A stretch of 64,000 nt of DNA from Maribacter dokdonensis DSW-8 (GTDB lineage: Bacteria; Bacteroidota; Bacteroidia; Flavobacteriales; Flavobacteriaceae). Below the pieces are notes generated by a model. The model saw nothing but the letters and a program-made list of their open reading frames with translations. It was not told where the DNA came from and searched no databases. A program made the translations under genes and the position numbers. This document shows, in pieces, positions 3 through 29,583 of this stretch (its first letter is position 1; every line of letters begins with the position of its first letter). The DNA is taken from positions 496,001 to 560,000 of the forward strand of contig NZ_LDPE01000002.1 in assembly GCF_001447995.1 (NCBI RefSeq). Reading direction: 5' to 3'.

Positions 3-1430
3 AAAAAGGGTATTGTTCATTATTCAATAGAAAAGGATACCATTAATTTAATTAATAGTATTTGCCAATTGTCTGGTTTGTATGACAATGTATTGGATTA
101 TGGTAAGTCTTATGATGGGTATTGGGAGGCATTGATATTAGCCGATGAATCTAATGATGATATTTCTAAATCACGAATATATCAAGAACTGGGTTGGCTA
201 TATACCGCCTATAGAAAGGAAGAAGAATCTTTACGATACTTCAATATGTCGTTGGAGCTTAAGAAGAAACTAGTCGAGGAGAAAAAGATAAGTAGGGATT
301 ATCTGGTAAGTAACTACTTTGCCATAGTAAACTGCTATAGGGTAAATCGTAATTATGTCATGGCAAAAACATATTTGGATAGTTGTGAACTGTCATTAAA
401 AAAGATCAGTTCAGATAAAAGATCATATTACGTAGAGACAGAAAAGGGATATTTTGATGCGGTAGCGGGTAATTATGAAAAAGCCTTGAGCAAACTGAAC
501 GAGACCAAGCTATTTTTTGAAGAGAAAAACCCTTCATATTTAACGGTGGTTCATTTCTTAATGGGAGAGGTATATAAGTTTAGGGGAGAATATGATAAAG
601 CAATAAAAAATTACAAAGAATCGTTGAGGTTTTCAGAAATGTATAATAAACATCTGGGTTACAAACTATTCAATTATGAAGAGTTATCTAAGTTATATTA
701 TGATCAGAATAACTTTAAAGAAGCCTTTTTCTATAAAGACAAAGCACAAGCGTTAAATGAAAGCATATTTGGGAGAAAAAGTAAAAACCACAAACATTTA
801 TTTGGAATAAAAGATAGATATAGACTTCAAAAAGAAAAAGAAAAGGCATTACTAAAAGAGGTAAGAATAGAGAAGCTAGAAGACCAGAAAAGAATTGGTT
901 TTTTACAAAATATCTTAATGGGCGTGGTAGTGGTTTTTATGTTTTTGTACGGTGTTCTGTTTTTTAGAAATCTTAGGAGAAAACATAAACTTGAAAAACA
1001 AAAGACCAATGAGGTAATGATGCTTAAAAATAGAGAGCTAACGGCATCTGCCCTTCAGTTGATTGAAAAAGAAGAATTTATTTCTAAATTAAAACAGAAT
1101 ATCTCTAAGAGTGATGCTGTAGATACAAAGGCCATTCATAATATGCTGAAGGGTTTTCAAAACACCCCAGGTGGTAACTGGAAAGAATTTGAAGCCAGGT
1201 TTACTTCTATTAACGAAAGTTTTTATGAAAAGATTAGGGCTAAATATCCAAATTTGGGCCAAACGGATCTAAAATTGTGTGCTTTGGTCAAGTTGGGGTT
1301 TTCCAGTAAAGAAATGTCGTCTCTGTTGGGTATTACCATTGAAAGTGTACATACCTCAAGATATAGACTTCGTAAGAAACTAAATTTGGAAAAAGGTGAA
1401 AACCTAATAGATTTTATGTCTACTATTTAA
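3..1430 (+). CDS. TPR sensor-type transcriptional regulator with membrane helix and C-terminal HTH (5' truncated by window)
   Basis: The reading frame is open right to the left edge (upstream of the TTG at 69 it continues without a stop), so the true start lies outside the window. The visible part holds several tetratricopeptide-type helical repeats (to about residue 265 of the visible part), a coiled-coil stretch, one transmembrane helix (FLQNILMGVVVVFMFLYGVL), a second coiled coil and a C-terminal LuxR/GerE-like helix-turn-helix (LTDLKLCALVKLG-type region, KEMSSLLGITIESVHTSRYR). This architecture is common in Bacteroidota regulators that sense signals across or at the inner membrane and bind DNA with the C-terminal domain. 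It converges on the sus operon to its right, so a regulatory link is only a guess. Confidence 0.85.
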   Translation, partial: KKGIVHYSIEKDTINLINSICQLSGLYDNVLDYGKSYDGYWEALILADESNDDISKSRIYQELGWLYTAYRKEEESLRYFNMSLELKKKLVEEKKISRDYLVSNYFAIVNCYRVNRNYVMAKTYLDSCELSLKKISSDKRSYYVETEKGYFDAVAGNYEKALSKLNETKLFFEEKNPSYLTVVHFLMGEVYKFRGEYDKAIKNYKESLRFSEMYNKHLGYKLFNYEELSKLYYDQNNFKEAFFYKDKAQALNESIFGRKSKNHKHLFGIKDRYRLQKEKEKALLKEVRIEKLEDQKRIGFLQNILMGVVVVFMFLYGVLFFRNLRRKHKLEKQKTNEVMMLKNRELTASALQLIEKEEFISKLKQNISKSDAVDTKAIHNMLKGFQNTPGGNWKEFEARFTSINESFYEKIRAKYPNLGQTDLKLCALVKLGFSSKEMSSLLGITIESVHTSRYRLRKKLNLEKGENLIDFMSTI

Positions 1431-25900: not shown

Positions 25901-26092
25901 TGAAAACTCAAAAAGACTGTTAAGAATACGATGTTTCATTTCATTTACCGCCTTATTGGTAAAAGTGATCGCTAATATTTTTCTGAAATTTTGAGGAGAA
26001 GCCAGTATAATCTTCAAGTACACCTTGGCAAGCGCATACGTTTTGCCTGATCCGGCAGAAGCATTATATATGGTAAACGGATAATTAGACAC
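22997..26092 (-). CDS. AddA-like UvrD/RecB-type helicase-nuclease
   Basis: 1031 residues. UvrD-family helicase: Walker A at the N-terminus (ASAGSGKT), motif Ia [11 protein letters not shown], Walker [23 protein letters not shown], motif [19 protein letters not shown] and motif [15 protein letters not shown]. The C-terminal RecB nuclease motif is RPDRVV followed by [14 protein letters not shown]-driven 3'-5' unwinding plus nuclease at double-strand ends; likely partner is the AddB-like protein encoded at 17524-20265. The start is GTG. First gene of a minus-strand run followed by kbl. Confidence 0.92.
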
Positions 26093-26167
26093 TGATTTTT
26101 ACTGCAAATTAAGGATTACTGTACAGTTCTTAACAAATTATTACGTGAATATAAATGTTAAAATCCG

Positions 26168-26175
26168 TAACTTTG
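26168..26175 (+). promoter_or_regulatory. -7 element upstream of sodA
   Basis: TAACTTTG, exact match to TAnnTTTG, 36 bp before the sodA ATG. No clear -33 element at standard distance. Confidence 0.6.
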
Positions 26176-26211
26176 AAATACAATTAATATAAATCTAAAA
26201 ACACATAAATT

Positions 26212-26820
26212 ATGGCTTTTGAATTACCAAAATTGCCTTACGCTTATGATGCTCTTGAGCCTCATATTGATGCAAGGACGATGGAAATACATCATACAAA
26301 ACATCATAACGGATATACAACTAAGTTAAATGCCGCTATTGAAGGTACAGATCTAGAAGGAAAATCTATTGAAGATATCTTAACAGGTTTGGATATGAGT
26401 AATGGTGCAGTTAGAAACAACGGAGGTGGTTTTTATAACCACTCATTATTCTGGACTATATTATCACCAAACGGTGGTGGTAAGCCTAGTGGAGAATTAG
26501 CATCTGCTATTGATAGTGCTTTTGGTTCTTTTGAAGAGTTTAAAAGCAAGTTTACTGCTGCTGCAGGTACTAGATTTGGTTCTGGTTGGGCATGGTTATG
26601 TGTTCATGAAGGTGGTAAAGTAGAAGTTTGTTCTACACCAAATCAAGACAATCCGTTAATGCCAGGAGTAGAATGTGGTGGGCAACCTATCTTAGGATTA
26701 GATGTATGGGAGCATGCATATTACCTAAATTATCAAAATAAGAGACCAGATTATATTGAAGCGTTTTTTAATATTATCAACTGGGATGAGGTATCTAAAC
26801 TTTATGCTAGTAACAAATAA
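26212..26820 (+). CDS. sodA: Superoxide dismutase, Mn-type
   Basis: 202 residues, full length. Metal ligands are visible: His27 (MEIHHTKHH), His77 (NHSLFW), Asp164 and His168 (DVWEHAYY). Gly in RNNGGG and Gln145 in TPNQDNPLM are the residues that distinguish Mn-type from Fe-type enzymes (Fe-type carries Gln near the former and Ala-Gly at the latter). It dismutates superoxide to peroxide and oxygen; no signal peptide, hence cytosolic. Monocistronic, with its own -7 element and terminator. Confidence 0.96.
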
Positions 26821-26855
26821 GGAAAAGGTAAAGTAAATCCTAACTAACTTGTAGG

Positions 26856-26890
26856 AAACCACTTGTGAAAATTTCATAGGTGGTTTTTTT
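26856..26890 (+). terminator. Intrinsic terminator of sodA
   Basis: AAACCAC...GTGGTTT stem with an interior partially paired region, followed by a run of seven T, 36 bp after the sodA stop. Confidence 0.8.
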
Positions 26891-26898
26891 GTTTTTAA

Positions 26899-26975
26899 AA
26901 TAGAAAAGGGCGGAGAAGTCTCCACCCTTTTCGTCCCAAATCTTACCATAAACTTAACCTACTTATGCTATGGCG
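26899..26975 (-). ncRNA. Predicted small RNA, array copy 1 (most diverged)
   Basis: Minus-strand unit of about 75 nt: a conserved 5' block (GCCATAGCATAAGTAGGTTA then AGTTTATGGTAAGATTTGGG) and a terminator hairpin (GGGTGGAG / CTCCGCCC with a U-G pair) ending in CTTTTCTATTTT. The 5' G in place of A keeps pairing with the downstream ATGGT as a G-U wobble. A weak -7-like TAATTTAG lies 4 nt upstream. Confidence 0.6.
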
Positions 26976-27109
26976 ATACTAAATTACTGGTATTGAGTAA
27001 ATAAAAAAAGGAATTTTAAGAAAAAAATTCACTTTTATTTATGTCGTGTTATATTTCTCTTAGTGAATTATGATAGATAACAGCCTGAAAGTAAACTAGG
27101 TTGCATTAA

Positions 27110-27182
27110 AATAAAAAGACGGAGCATAGCCCCGTCTTTTCCCCAAATCTTACCATGAACTTAACCTACTTATGCTATGGTT
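27110..27182 (-). ncRNA. Predicted small RNA, array copy 2
   Basis: Minus strand: conserved block starting ACCATAGCATAAGTAGGTTA and ending GATTTGGGG, then hairpin GACGGGGC-TAT-GCTCCGTC followed by TTTTTATTTT. The block's ACCAT can pair with its ATGGT. Upstream is a -7-like TATATTTA (27186-27193), with a TTG 21 nt further up. Confidence 0.68.
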
Positions 27183-27309
27183 CTGTAAATATAAATGATG
27201 TTACTGTGGTTGGGCAAGCTAATCGATGTACGTCGTAAACCTAGGTTGTACTACTATTTTAGATGAAAATGATACTTAGGTAACGAGAGCTTTGATGAAA
27301 TAGGTTCAA

Positions 27310-27384
27310 AAATAAAAAGACGGAGCATTGCTCCGCCTTTTTCCCCAAATCTTACCATGAACTTAACCTACTTATGCTATGGTT
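27310..27384 (-). ncRNA. Predicted small RNA, array copy 3
   Basis: Same conserved 40-nt block as copy 2 and a hairpin GGCGGAGC-AAT-GCTCCGTC (one G-U pair) followed by TTTTTATTTTT. A -7-like TACATTTA lies at 27388-27395, in the same position relative to the block as in copy 2. Confidence 0.68.
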
Positions 27385-27502
27385 CTGTAAATGTAATATG
27401 CTTAACTACAATTGAAAATAGTACTAGTTAAACGTACCGTTAAAACGTTAAAGGGGGCTTTGTGAAGAATTGGATTACAAAATAACAATCTGTAATCTGT
27501 AT

Positions 27503-27580
27503 AAAATAAAAAAGGCGGAGAAGTCTCCACCTTTTTTGCCCCAAATCTTACCATGAACTTAACCTACTTATGCTATGGTA
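27503..27580 (-). ncRNA. Predicted small RNA, array copy 4
   Basis: Same conserved 40-nt block, then hairpin GGTGGAG-ACTT-CTCCGCC (one U-G pair) followed by TTTTTTATTTTAT. A -7-like TACTTTTA lies at 27585-27592. This is the copy nearest the purF end. Confidence 0.68.
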
Positions 27581-27641
27581 GCTTTAAAAGTAAACAGGGT
27601 TAAGTCAAAACGACTATTCAGTCGTTAAAATGCTATATTCG

Positions 27642-27676
27642 TCGATGAAATACATAAAAAGTGTGCATTTCATCGA
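27642..27676 (-). terminator. Hairpin downstream of purF
   Basis: 10-bp perfect stem (TCGATGAAAT / ATTTCATCGA) with a 15-nt loop, 9 bp after the purF stop. A second 6-bp hairpin (AACGAC / GTCGTT, 27609-27626) followed by TTTT on the minus strand lies just beyond, so one or both can end the purF transcript before the sRNA array. Confidence 0.6.
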
Positions 27677-27684
27677 ATTATTAT

Positions 27685-29583
27685 TTAATAAGCGCGTTCA
27701 TTGTTTCCTTCGTAGAAGTTGATGAACGCTCTATTTACAACTCTATTTCCACCAGGCGTTGGGTAGTTGCCGGTAAAATACCAATCACCTAAATTCTTAG
27801 GGCAAGCCTCATGTAAGCTAGATATGGTTTGGTATATTATGGAAACTTCTGCATTGATATCATCTGGACTCAACAGCTCTCCGATCTTTTTAGAAATTTC
27901 TTTTGCAGTGAATGGAGCATAGAAATCCTTTACATAGTTAATGACATCTTGATCACGGCTCTCTACTTGTGTTAAGCATTTTTTATAAATTTCCTCTACA
28001 ATATGCATGGAGTTGTTGTCCTCGTGCAACGCCAAGGCTGCTTTAAAGGCAATAAAATCTTCAAGCTTTGCCATATCTATACCATAACAATCTGGGTAGC
28101 GGATTTGTGGTGCAGATGATACAACTATTATTTTCTTTGGAGATAACCTGTCCAAAATTCTAAGAATACTCTTTTTCAAGGTAGTACCCCTTACAATACT
28201 ATCATCTATAATAACAAGGTTGTCTCCTTTTTTTACAGAACCATAAGAAATGTCATATACATGTGCCACTAGGTCATCTCTACTGCTATCTTGCGTAATA
28301 AAGGTTCTTAGCTTGGCGTCTTTAATGGCTACTTTTTCAATTCTTGGACGAACCTCTAGTATTTCATGAAGTTGCTCGCCGGTAATTGCAGGTCCTAATG
28401 CAAGTATTTGTTCTTCTTTTTTCTGGTTCAAATAGTTTTGAGCCTCTTTTACCATACCGTAAAAAGAAGTTTCTGCAGTATTCGGTATATAGGAGAAGAC
28501 AGTGTTTTTGATATCTTCATTTATAGATTCCAATATCTGTGGAAATACCAATTTACCTAAAGCTTTACGTTCTTGATAAATCTCCTTATCGCTACCTCTA
28601 GAAAAGTAAATACGTTCAAAAGAACATGCTTTACGTTCTTTAGGTTCCTGAATTTGGTGAATGACGCTAGTACCGTTCTTTTTAATGATAATGGCGGCAC
28701 CAGGGTCAAGTTCTTTTACCTCGTCATAAGGTACGTTGAATACCGTTTGTATAGCAGGTCTTTCTGAGGCAACTACAACAACTTCATCATCCCTGTAATA
28801 ATAAGCCGGTCTAATACCACTAGGATCCCGTAAGACAAAAGCATCACCATGGCCTAACAAACCTGCCATGGCATAACCACCATCAAAATTCTTGGCGGCT
28901 CTTTTTAATATCTTGTACACCTTTAAACGTTCTGCAATAATAGGCGAAGCTTGTTGTTTGGTGTATCCTTCTTTTTTTATCTGCTTATATAGTTTAGCAA
29001 CGGCATCATCAAGAAAATGACCTATTTTTTCCATTACCGTAACGGTATCTGCCATCTCTTTAGGATGCTGGCCAAGTTGAACCAGGTTGTCAAAAAGCTC
29101 ATGAACATTGGTCATATTAAAATTACCGGCAACAATTAAGTTACGGTGCATCCAGTTGTTCTGTCTTAAGAAAGGATGAACACTCTCAATGCTGTTTTTG
29201 CCAAAGGTACCGTAACGCACATGACCTAAAAGGAGTTCACCTATATAAGGTATATTCTTTTTTTGCAAGGCAACATTATGCTCATACTCCGGATGCTCTT
29301 TCATCTCGGTATTGATACGCTCATTTATTTGTGCAAAAATGTCCTGTATAGGCTGTTGCTGGCAAGAACGAACACGGCTCATGTAACGTTCACCTGCCTT
29401 AACATCTAATTTAATGCTGGCAAAACCTGCACCGTCTTGACCACGGTTATGTTGTTTTTCCATCATTAAGTACATTTTATTTACACCATAAAATGCTGTT
29501 CCATACTTTTCCTTGTAATACTCTAAAGGTTTTAATAACCGTATTACAGATATACCACACTCATGCTTAATTGCGTCACTCAT
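27685..29583 (-). CDS. purF: Amidophosphoribosyltransferase (long Bacteroidota form)
   Basis: 632 residues, longer than the about 470-510 of typical PurF. Class II glutamine amidotransferase domain with the nucleophile Cys9 (KHECGISV; a short propeptide would be removed), HNRGQDGAGF and GHVRYGTFG, then the phosphoribosyltransferase domain with PRPP loop VIIDDSIVRGTTLK. It catalyses the first step of purine synthesis, PRPP plus glutamine to phosphoribosylamine. The extra length sits in insertions and a C-terminal extension of about 100 residues. purN is in the same minus-strand run, though the kinase terminator separates the transcripts. Confidence 0.9.
   Translation of the reverse strand: MSDAIKHECGISVIRLLKPLEYYKEKYGTAFYGVNKMYLMMEKQHNRGQDGAGFASIKLDVKAGERYMSRVRSCQQQPIQDIFAQINERINTEMKEHPEYEHNVALQKKNIPYIGELLLGHVRYGTFGKNSIESVHPFLRQNNWMHRNLIVAGNFNMTNVHELFDNLVQLGQHPKEMADTVTVMEKIGHFLDDAVAKLYKQIKKEGYTKQQASPIIAERLKVYKILKRAAKNFDGGYAMAGLLGHGDAFVLRDPSGIRPAYYYRDDEVVVVASERPAIQTVFNVPYDEVKELDPGAAIIIKKNGTSVIHQIQEPKERKACSFERIYFSRGSDKEIYQERKALGKLVFPQILESINEDIKNTVFSYIPNTAETSFYGMVKEAQNYLNQKKEEQILALGPAITGEQLHEILEVRPRIEKVAIKDAKLRTFITQDSSRDDLVAHVYDISYGSVKKGDNLVIIDDSIVRGTTLKKSILRILDRLSPKKIIVVSSAPQIRYPDCYGIDMAKLEDFIAFKAALALHEDNNSMHIVEEIYKKCLTQVESRDQDVINYVKDFYAPFTAKEISKKIGELLSPDDINAEVSIIYQTISSLHEACPKNLGDWYFTGNYPTPGGNRVVNRAFINFYEGNNERAY

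Follow-up and report, generated by a model that had tools for sequence, protein, structure and literature searches.

Bacterial sRNA sponges, such as SroC and ChbB, are transcripts that carry sites complementary to an sRNA. Among multicopy sRNAs, the LhrC family of Listeria (LhrC1-5, Rli22, and Rli33-1) is partly clustered, has surface-protein targets, pairs at ribosome-binding sites, and has most of its members under two-component control (PMC8079631). In Flavobacterium psychrophilum, Rfp18 was reported to pair through its third stem-loop and to act on metalloproteases, and its deletion lowered the target mRNAs (PMC9723704). For F. columnare, sRNA candidates without Rfam matches were reported in a paper that describes the sRNA data for the Bacteroidota group as a paucity; the trans-acting sRNAs of the Bacteroidota are poorly known, above all outside Bacteroides (PMC5395568).

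The window analyzed here is a 64,000-nucleotide stretch of Maribacter dokdonensis DSW-8 (contig NZ_LDPE01000002.1, positions 496,001 to 560,000). A repeat search of the window revealed a four-copy direct-repeat family with spacings of 207, 202, and 196 bp. The units are located between sodA (26212-26820, plus strand) and purF (27685-29583, minus strand), both named from the reading frame and the earlier note, and all four are on the minus strand, i.e. downstream of purF on the purF strand and convergent with sodA. Unit 4, which is purF-proximal and ca. 76 nt long, occupies 27504..27579, unit 3 occupies 27310..27383, unit 2 occupies 27109..27181, and the sodA-proximal unit 1 occupies 26899..26974. 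When the minus-strand block RCCATAGCATAAGTAGGTTAAGTTYATGGTAAGATTTGGGR was aligned, 38 of the first 40 columns were identical across all four units. Folding gave every unit the same layout, in which an unpaired linker joins a 5' hairpin (ACCAU...AUGGU stem) to a terminator hairpin; compared to 200 dinucleotide shuffles each, the fold z ranged from -3.9 to -4.9 (-4.1, -4.9, -4.6, and -3.9 for units 4, 3, 2, and 1, respectively). When the four units were used to build a covariance model, R1, it scored them at 101.6, 92.9, 94.8, and 96.8 bits in the same order. These array copies were the only strong R1 matches in the 4.43-Mb genome (E 5e-19 to 5e-17); a fifth strong copy was absent from it, the next-best match having an E of 0.27. 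The initial annotation had described four units spaced by about 200 bp, each with a near-invariant 40-nt block and a terminator whose U-run faces the minus direction, and the repeat search, alignment, and folding confirmed all of this; little similarity was seen between the spacers, which it had called unconserved.

The minus-strand elements of unit 4 serve to describe the architecture. The 5' hairpin with the ACCAU...AUGGU stem (27550..27579) was defined by folding and by covariation helices 1 and 2. Its loop, UAAGUAGGUUAAG (27558..27570), is near-invariant and is complementary to the start regions of the predicted targets; it is termed pairing element 1. Pairing element 2 is the conserved, unpaired linker GAUUUGGG (27540..27547), which is complementary to CCCAAATC in target leaders. 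The intrinsic terminator hairpin (27508..27537) was defined by folding and by covariation helix 3. Unit 1 is of a distinct type (GCCATAG..TTTATGG..GGGACG) that was seen again in relatives. Taken with the comparisons presented below, the array quite probably encodes a multicopy, trans-acting, base-pairing sRNA that masks start codons in mRNAs regulated together with it; transcripts with several sites are its likely decoys.

A scan of window positions 26000-28500 against Rfam 15 gave 24 matches at E <= 10, none of them at the gathering score; that score was reached by no Rfam family, LhrC's included if present. Flavo-1, the name of which we take to point to a flavobacterial RNA, had been raised in the initial annotation as a possible identity. 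It was not among the 24 matches and was rejected, having no covariance-model match at E <= 10. STnc40 and sraA were also rejected, at 18.8-31.1 bits compared to gathering scores of 45 and 56; these weak matches fall around the window's terminator hairpins, some of them on the plus strand. Literature was searched for flavobacterial sRNAs linked to purF/sodA, Maribacter, or LytTR and for sponges of the Bacteroidota, and none of the openly licensed PMC papers found, taken without supplements, describes this RNA. The array is a real sRNA family, neither an artefact nor Flavo-1; the RNA is of a known kind, has no Rfam 15 family, and is undescribed in the literature found.

Relatives were inspected for loss of the block or of hairpin pairing, and the block was found to be conserved and the pairing kept, so the initial reading stood. 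Across 119 units, of which four are the window's and 115 come from 29 same-genus loci, hardly a letter differs in the 40-nt block, and the terminator stem varies by compensating changes. A further 58 loci supplied 145 units (107 distinct rows) for a covariation alignment, in which 97.9% of cells pair and 17 of 20 pairs changed on both sides, as opposed to a mean of 6.5 in shuffled alignments (0 of 500 as high) and 5 to 10 in slid controls; the fitting of this alignment to the model favors the result. Units with the same linker and terminator and another 5' hairpin are present in three loci (L068, L122, and L124; L, G, and C denote loci, genomes, and contigs). Within the sRNA array of L068 (ca. 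665-1230, minus strand), there are four repeats of ca. 150 bp that contain GATACCATTTGGGG and a terminator behind an unrelated 5' part, the fourth repeat being without a complete terminator. Three more diverged sRNA-like copies (43 to 52 bits) are located outside the main array at G153:C13:309722-310417; the small-ORF locus of G153, of a type described below, is without the site.

At E <= 0.1, R1 matched 41 of 60 genomes. These included 35 of the 36 genomes of the window's genus, its own among them (the exception, G008, is 83% complete), and the one other family member in the sample. Genomes of the same order in other families gave weak matches at this threshold in 5 of 23 cases (best E 0.0017); as out-of-family homologs these were rejected and left out of the homolog count, because the best of them, L061, retains little beyond a terminator. 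In a family sample, R1 at E <= 0.01 matched 319 of 397 genomes and 198 of 237 genera, with up to seven matches per genome among the matches listed. A DNA pattern scan of named genomes yielded at least 118 stretches with units. Among the matches listed, the genus-named stretches are from what we take to be Flavobacteriaceae (Maribacter, Zobellia, Winogradskyella, Aquimarina, Flavobacterium, and others); the remaining ones are MAGs whose names stop at the family or a higher rank. Both purF and sodA were present in 82 of the at least 118 stretches, and in 82 of 82 every exact unit lies between them, on the purF strand and convergent with sodA. The numbers of these listed loci having one to six exact copies were 33, 16, 16, 11, 5, and 1, respectively. 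One of the two genes was found in 32 stretches and neither in four, two of which have a unit within 150 bases of the stretch end. A viral contig collection gave no match to two exact patterns.

Promoter-like boxes precede all four units on the minus strand. The initial annotation had placed three of them 4 nt from the block and had called the fourth weaker. The 4-nt distance held for TATATTTA of unit 2 (27186..27193) and TACATTTA of unit 3 (27388..27395), whereas TACTTTTA of unit 4 (27585..27592) ends 5 nt before the block; the sodA-proximal box, TAATTTAG (26979..26986, 4 nt before the block), fits the family-wide profile. That profile was derived from 228 units at 104 of 118 loci among the matches listed, and it has T at.86, A at.88, T at.99, T at.93, and G at.75 at positions -12, -11, -8, -7, and -5, respectively. 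An exact TAnnTTTR was found within 18 nt of the unit in 120 of the 228, compared to 5 in shuffles. The unit-1 type has another promoter, CAATACCAGTAATTTAG. We infer that the units are separately transcribed short sRNA genes, as the initial annotation had proposed; conservation, covariation, and the box before each of the four back this at the level of sequence.

Farther upstream, repeats of the TTTCATC type are enriched. Within 120 nt of the 228 units, TTTCATCGA was counted upstream of 27 units in the forward and 26 in the reverse orientation, against 0 in one shuffle each, and TTC[AG]TC[GT]A of 75 and 37, respectively, against 4; [AG]CATCGA was without enrichment (1 and 2 vs. 5). Of 41 upstream occurrences of ATTTCATC, 29 were at -71/-72, and TTCATCTA and TTCGTCTA cluster at -49/-50. 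In the window, an operator-like TTTCATCGA starts at about -71 of unit 4 (27642..27650, minus strand), corresponding to the enriched position of ATTTCATC; a second TTTCATCGA, inverted relative to it (27668..27676, plus strand), completes an inverted repeat, and an operator-like TTTTCATCTAAAA is situated upstream of unit 2 (27257..27269, minus strand). Such repeats are missing from the promoter of the sodA-proximal unit. We take them to be AlgR/LytTR-like; AlgR, LytTR, and CCGTTCGTC are said to be found together in one paper. The LytTR-type layout features two direct AlgR-like repeats ca. 20 bp apart; here, ATTTCATC is mostly at -71/-72 and TTCRTCTA near -50. In the window's own genome, a strict two-repeat operator pattern matched at 3 sites, none of them at the array or the targets, and a reversed control matched at 1; the analysis relied on the single-repeat counts instead.

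Candidate targets were sought using R2, a sequence-only model of the block that also finds weaker non-array sites. It was run on 11 genomes, and 20 non-array sites were fetched from seven genus genomes; these were mostly the strongest, with L292 and L293 chosen for recurrence and at least one stronger row passed over. Eleven of the 20 are antisense at a start codon, and they fall into two orthologous groups, A and B; the other nine are within genes, elsewhere, or unclear. Group A is a 125-aa protein with a lipoprotein-like signal (read by eye) and the leader CCCAAATCCACCATAAAATTAACCTACTT-ATG, and group B is a 148-aa protein with the leader CCCCAAACCTTAAACTTAACCTATTA-ATG. Neither had a Pfam match above the cut-off; B homologs are named DUF559 or very-short-patch-repair endonuclease in some database entries (best 120 of 682). 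The B gene of the window's genome and an Nramp transporter gene are transcribed away from each other, and the contigs of A and B differ from that of the array. A protein search of 120 family genomes found A in 18 and B in 17, and all 17 of the latter also have A.

The leaders of A and B were then gathered by protein homology, not by complementarity, and were scored for two elements. The first is CCCAAATC, sought within 100 nt with one mismatch allowed; the second is TTAACCTACTTA, which had to follow at the ATG with no more than three mismatches. Of the 23 lipoprotein matches, 20 were scored; in the other three, no ATG was located. Both elements occurred in order in 12 of 17 B leaders (the other five lacked this order), in 11 of 20 scored A-family leaders, and in 0 of 577 other leaders; the count is strong but is not a clean probability, because the elements were defined from B and orthologs are not independent. 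The first element alone was present in 16/17 B, 15/20 A-family, and 20/577 other leaders, and the second in 13/17, 12/20, and 15/577, respectively. The spacer between the two sites in B leaders ranges from a few to ca. 40 nt. Using the window's block as the sole representative sRNA and 587 real leaders as background (mean -17.0, sd 4.1), duplex energies below the 5% quantile (-24.3) were obtained for 15 of the 17 leaders of B and for 11 of the 20 of the A family. The lipoprotein leaders are uneven in this respect: for nine of 20 the energy fails to fall below the quantile, and for three it equals or exceeds the background mean. Compared to their own shuffles, the B leaders reached z values of only -1.1 to -4.4, with 12 of 17 at -2.8 or below. 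A paralog of A in the window's own genome (L370), which was found by protein and has a different promoter, features the bipartite leader ATCCCAAATC..AAACTTAACCTAATATG, with a duplex of -31.0 (z -4.4; 1 of 587 leaders as low).

The predicted targets share upstream sequences with the sRNA units as well. In the 180 nt before the start, TTC[AG]TC[GT]A is present in 16/17 B, 4/20 A, and 2/577 other genes, and a relaxed operator form in 17/17, 13/20, and 18/577, respectively. Since TTTCATC-type repeats precede many sRNA units and targets, one regulator probably drives both. The suggestion of dedicated targets in the initial annotation has been made concrete by sequence comparison, which identified leaders complementary to the loop and linker elements, and this comparative evidence for the candidate targets is unusually direct. 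Separately, a 68-aa lipoprotein-like ORF at L006 (ca. 1640-1876; G000:C3:228647) has a start region with a 15-nt perfect complement to unit 1 (duplex -34.5, z -5.3); it was not seen elsewhere among the 11 genomes scanned with R2.

The antisense match to mRNA start regions implies that the sRNA probably switches those genes off. The opposite sign, in which pairing would activate the targets by opening leader structure or stabilizing the mRNA, is unlikely. It would accommodate the extra sequence between the sites of some B leaders (L296, L300, and L303), which by eye could form a hairpin, and the common upstream repeats, which suggest joint induction; the reported lowering of target mRNAs by the Rfp18 deletion would also fit (PMC9723704). 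However, the complementarity reaches the AUG in A, in B, and in many of the small-ORF leaders considered next, an arrangement that normally blocks initiation. Repression by start-codon masking is preferred.

Outside the genus, R2 was run on 18 genomes, and the 20 strongest non-array rows were fetched. One proved to be a variant sRNA unit (L331), and eight were no more than 10 nt from an ATG. By their flanks, six of the eight belong to one locus, which has a small-ORF transcript next to the gene of an ABC-transporter ATPase. This locus was subsequently fetched in 30 genera by the ATPase protein alone (the gene was present in 69 of 100 genomes, and the best 30 of 69 were taken). The sRNA is present in all 30 genomes. 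One representative sRNA block was tested for duplex formation against 40 shuffles, without choosing a frame, and the best duplex on the small-ORF strand had z < -4 in 25 of 30 loci; L389 and L406 show no pairing signal, and that of L390, L401, and L402 is weaker. The motif CCAAATYT occurs 36 times on the small-ORF (mRNA) strand and 0 times on the other, with at least one copy in 23/30 loci, at least two in 10/30, and three in L404. An AUG is followed by a second site within 12 nt at 17 of the 30. The upstream-type motif TTCRTCKA is found on the small-ORF strand in 15/30 loci and on the other strand in 2/30. Beside the ABC ATPase stop (L377-L406) lies a small ORF, 26-43 aa long in the six loci that were read. 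Its C-terminus resembles YLTKKIFML, and in several loci the ORF extends to the end of the ABC gene.

Two further observations concern sites of this kind. In Maribacter L292 and L293, at ca. 990-1100, there is a two-site stretch (CCCCAAATC..ACTTATG and CCCAAATTTTACGATAATTACTTAACC) with a terminator. It lies downstream of hflX (frame reading), between that gene and an outer-membrane-type gene, and could possibly be a decoy RNA or a 3' UTR. At L337 (G184), the start region of a dnaJ-like gene, GAACTTAACCTAATTATG, gave a duplex of -24.9; because its z is -2.7, this pairing may be due to chance.

Slightly less probable than activation is the notion that the small-ORF and other multi-site RNAs are neutralizers of the sRNA instead of targets, the real targets being other mRNAs. 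The loci with at least two CCAAATYT sites are compatible with it, as is L393, which has two full sites and a terminator and in which the usual small ORF is missing after the sites. Target B and the lipoproteins, on the other hand, are normal protein-coding genes, each having a single site, located at the start codon. A protein-binding RNA of the CsrB or 6S kind, in which the invariant motifs would bind a protein and the copies titrate it, is quite improbable: a multicopy array with invariant unpaired motifs shared by the four own-genome copies would fit, but titration fails to explain either the ordered reverse complements at orthologous start codons, seen in none of the 577 other leaders, or the 36-to-0 strand bias of CCAAATYT. 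Least probable of all is that the units are terminator-like repeats without promoters of their own, processed from purF readthrough, as their position downstream of purF on its strand in all 82 listed stretches might suggest. Against it stand the -7 box, found a constant distance before the units, and the repeats farther upstream, which also keep their positions.

Matched changes of the sRNA and its presumed partners were also examined. The linker has two forms, GGTAAGATTTGGGG and GGTAGATTTGGGG, the shorter of which is present in 27 of the 30 genomes. At the shorter-linker loci, CAAATCTAYC was counted 39 times (at least once in 24 of 27) and CAAATCTTAYC 0 times. The small-ORF loci of the three longer-linker genomes carry neither, and there is consequently no positive contrast at this locus. 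A homologous hairpin element carries CCCCAAATCTTACCATAACTTA in G001, whose linker is the longer one, and CCCCAAATCTACCATAACTTA in G089, whose linker is the shorter one. In both genomes, the duplex with the own type was the stronger (-46.6 vs. -40.6 and -43.8 vs. -43.0), although the two types differ by just 0.8 kcal/mol for L339. The sites at L288 and L339 fit their own host's version of the linker. In G133, a loop-variant sRNA and the changed small-ORF leader of that genome are complementary over 21 positions without a break (-31.5), and the canonical sRNA pairs as well with this leader (-33.9). The sRNA blocks were too uniform across genomes for a permutation of own versus other pairings. 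Few cases support matched changes, and the evidence for them is thin. The hairpin element itself (L288 1030-1134; L339 802-906) has a stem that differs between the two genera by compensating changes, and it starts with 15-16 nt complementary to the host's own linker and six more past a bulge. It adjoins a tRNA in L288, where nearby frames resemble mobilization proteins (frame reading); a mobile element may therefore carry an anti-sRNA decoy or an oriT-like hairpin.

Under the preferred reading, start-codon masking by a trans-acting sRNA, one to several tandem gene copies between purF and sodA would each be transcribed from a promoter of their own into an RNA of ca. 75 nt. The loop of the 5' hairpin would present UAAGUAGGUUAAG, the single-stranded linker would present GAUUUGGG, and the terminator would end the RNA. 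Together, loop and linker would act as a bipartite antisense to leaders, from CCCAAATC to the ACCUACUU(A)AUG start, and such pairing would block ribosome binding and promote mRNA decay. One regulator would induce both the sRNA and the target mRNA, and the sRNA would limit or delay the protein. Several copies would raise the dose, with the sodA-proximal copy adding its own input. Transcripts having at least two sites (the small-ORF locus and, in Maribacter, the hflX-side stretch) would buffer free sRNA; we infer this decoy role from the multiplicity of sites. As in other trans-acting sRNAs, at the level of sequence the units are short and intergenic, with a promoter-like box and an intrinsic terminator of their own, and their conserved unpaired elements are complementary to leaders of unlinked genes. 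A broader proposal is tentative and, on balance, doubtful, namely that a family-wide module exists in which one regulator drives the tandem sRNA, its antisense targets, and a dedicated multi-site decoy, in which the loop is swappable on a constant scaffold of GAUUUGGG plus terminator (variants in G133, G272, and G208/G389), and in which mobile elements carry host-adapted decoys.

About four fifths of the Flavobacteriaceae in the sample have the sRNA, and wherever both flanking genes are seen the locus is the same; the RNA belongs to no Rfam 15 family. With concrete predicted target sites down to the start codon, sRNA regulation in the phylum becomes directly testable, and the whole family is open to a comparison of the sRNA with its target and decoy transcripts.

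As for the described systems, Rfp18 resembles the present RNA in being flavobacterial, conserved, and active on a set of mRNAs (PMC9723704). It is described as having at least three stem-loops, whereas the window's units have two hairpins (PMC9723704). The identity of the present RNA with Rfp18 is not supported by this comparison of descriptions; another Rfp RNA may be its homolog. The predicted decoys resemble sponges, with the differences that their sites, several in number, lie on or around a small ORF and that half of the loci share the sRNA's upstream repeat type. In layout, the RNA resembles LhrC, which is also multicopy, has two stem-loops joined by a single strand, and carries pairing motifs in loop and linker; the resemblance is in working, not in descent. 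The LhrC motifs are UCCC, whereas the flavobacterial RNA has UAAGUAGGUUAAG and GAUUUGGG in a block without UCCC. LhrC RNAs are 105-121 nt long and belong to another phylum; the flavobacterial RNA is ca. 75 nt long, resides at one conserved locus, and is accompanied by transcripts with multiple predicted pairing sites.
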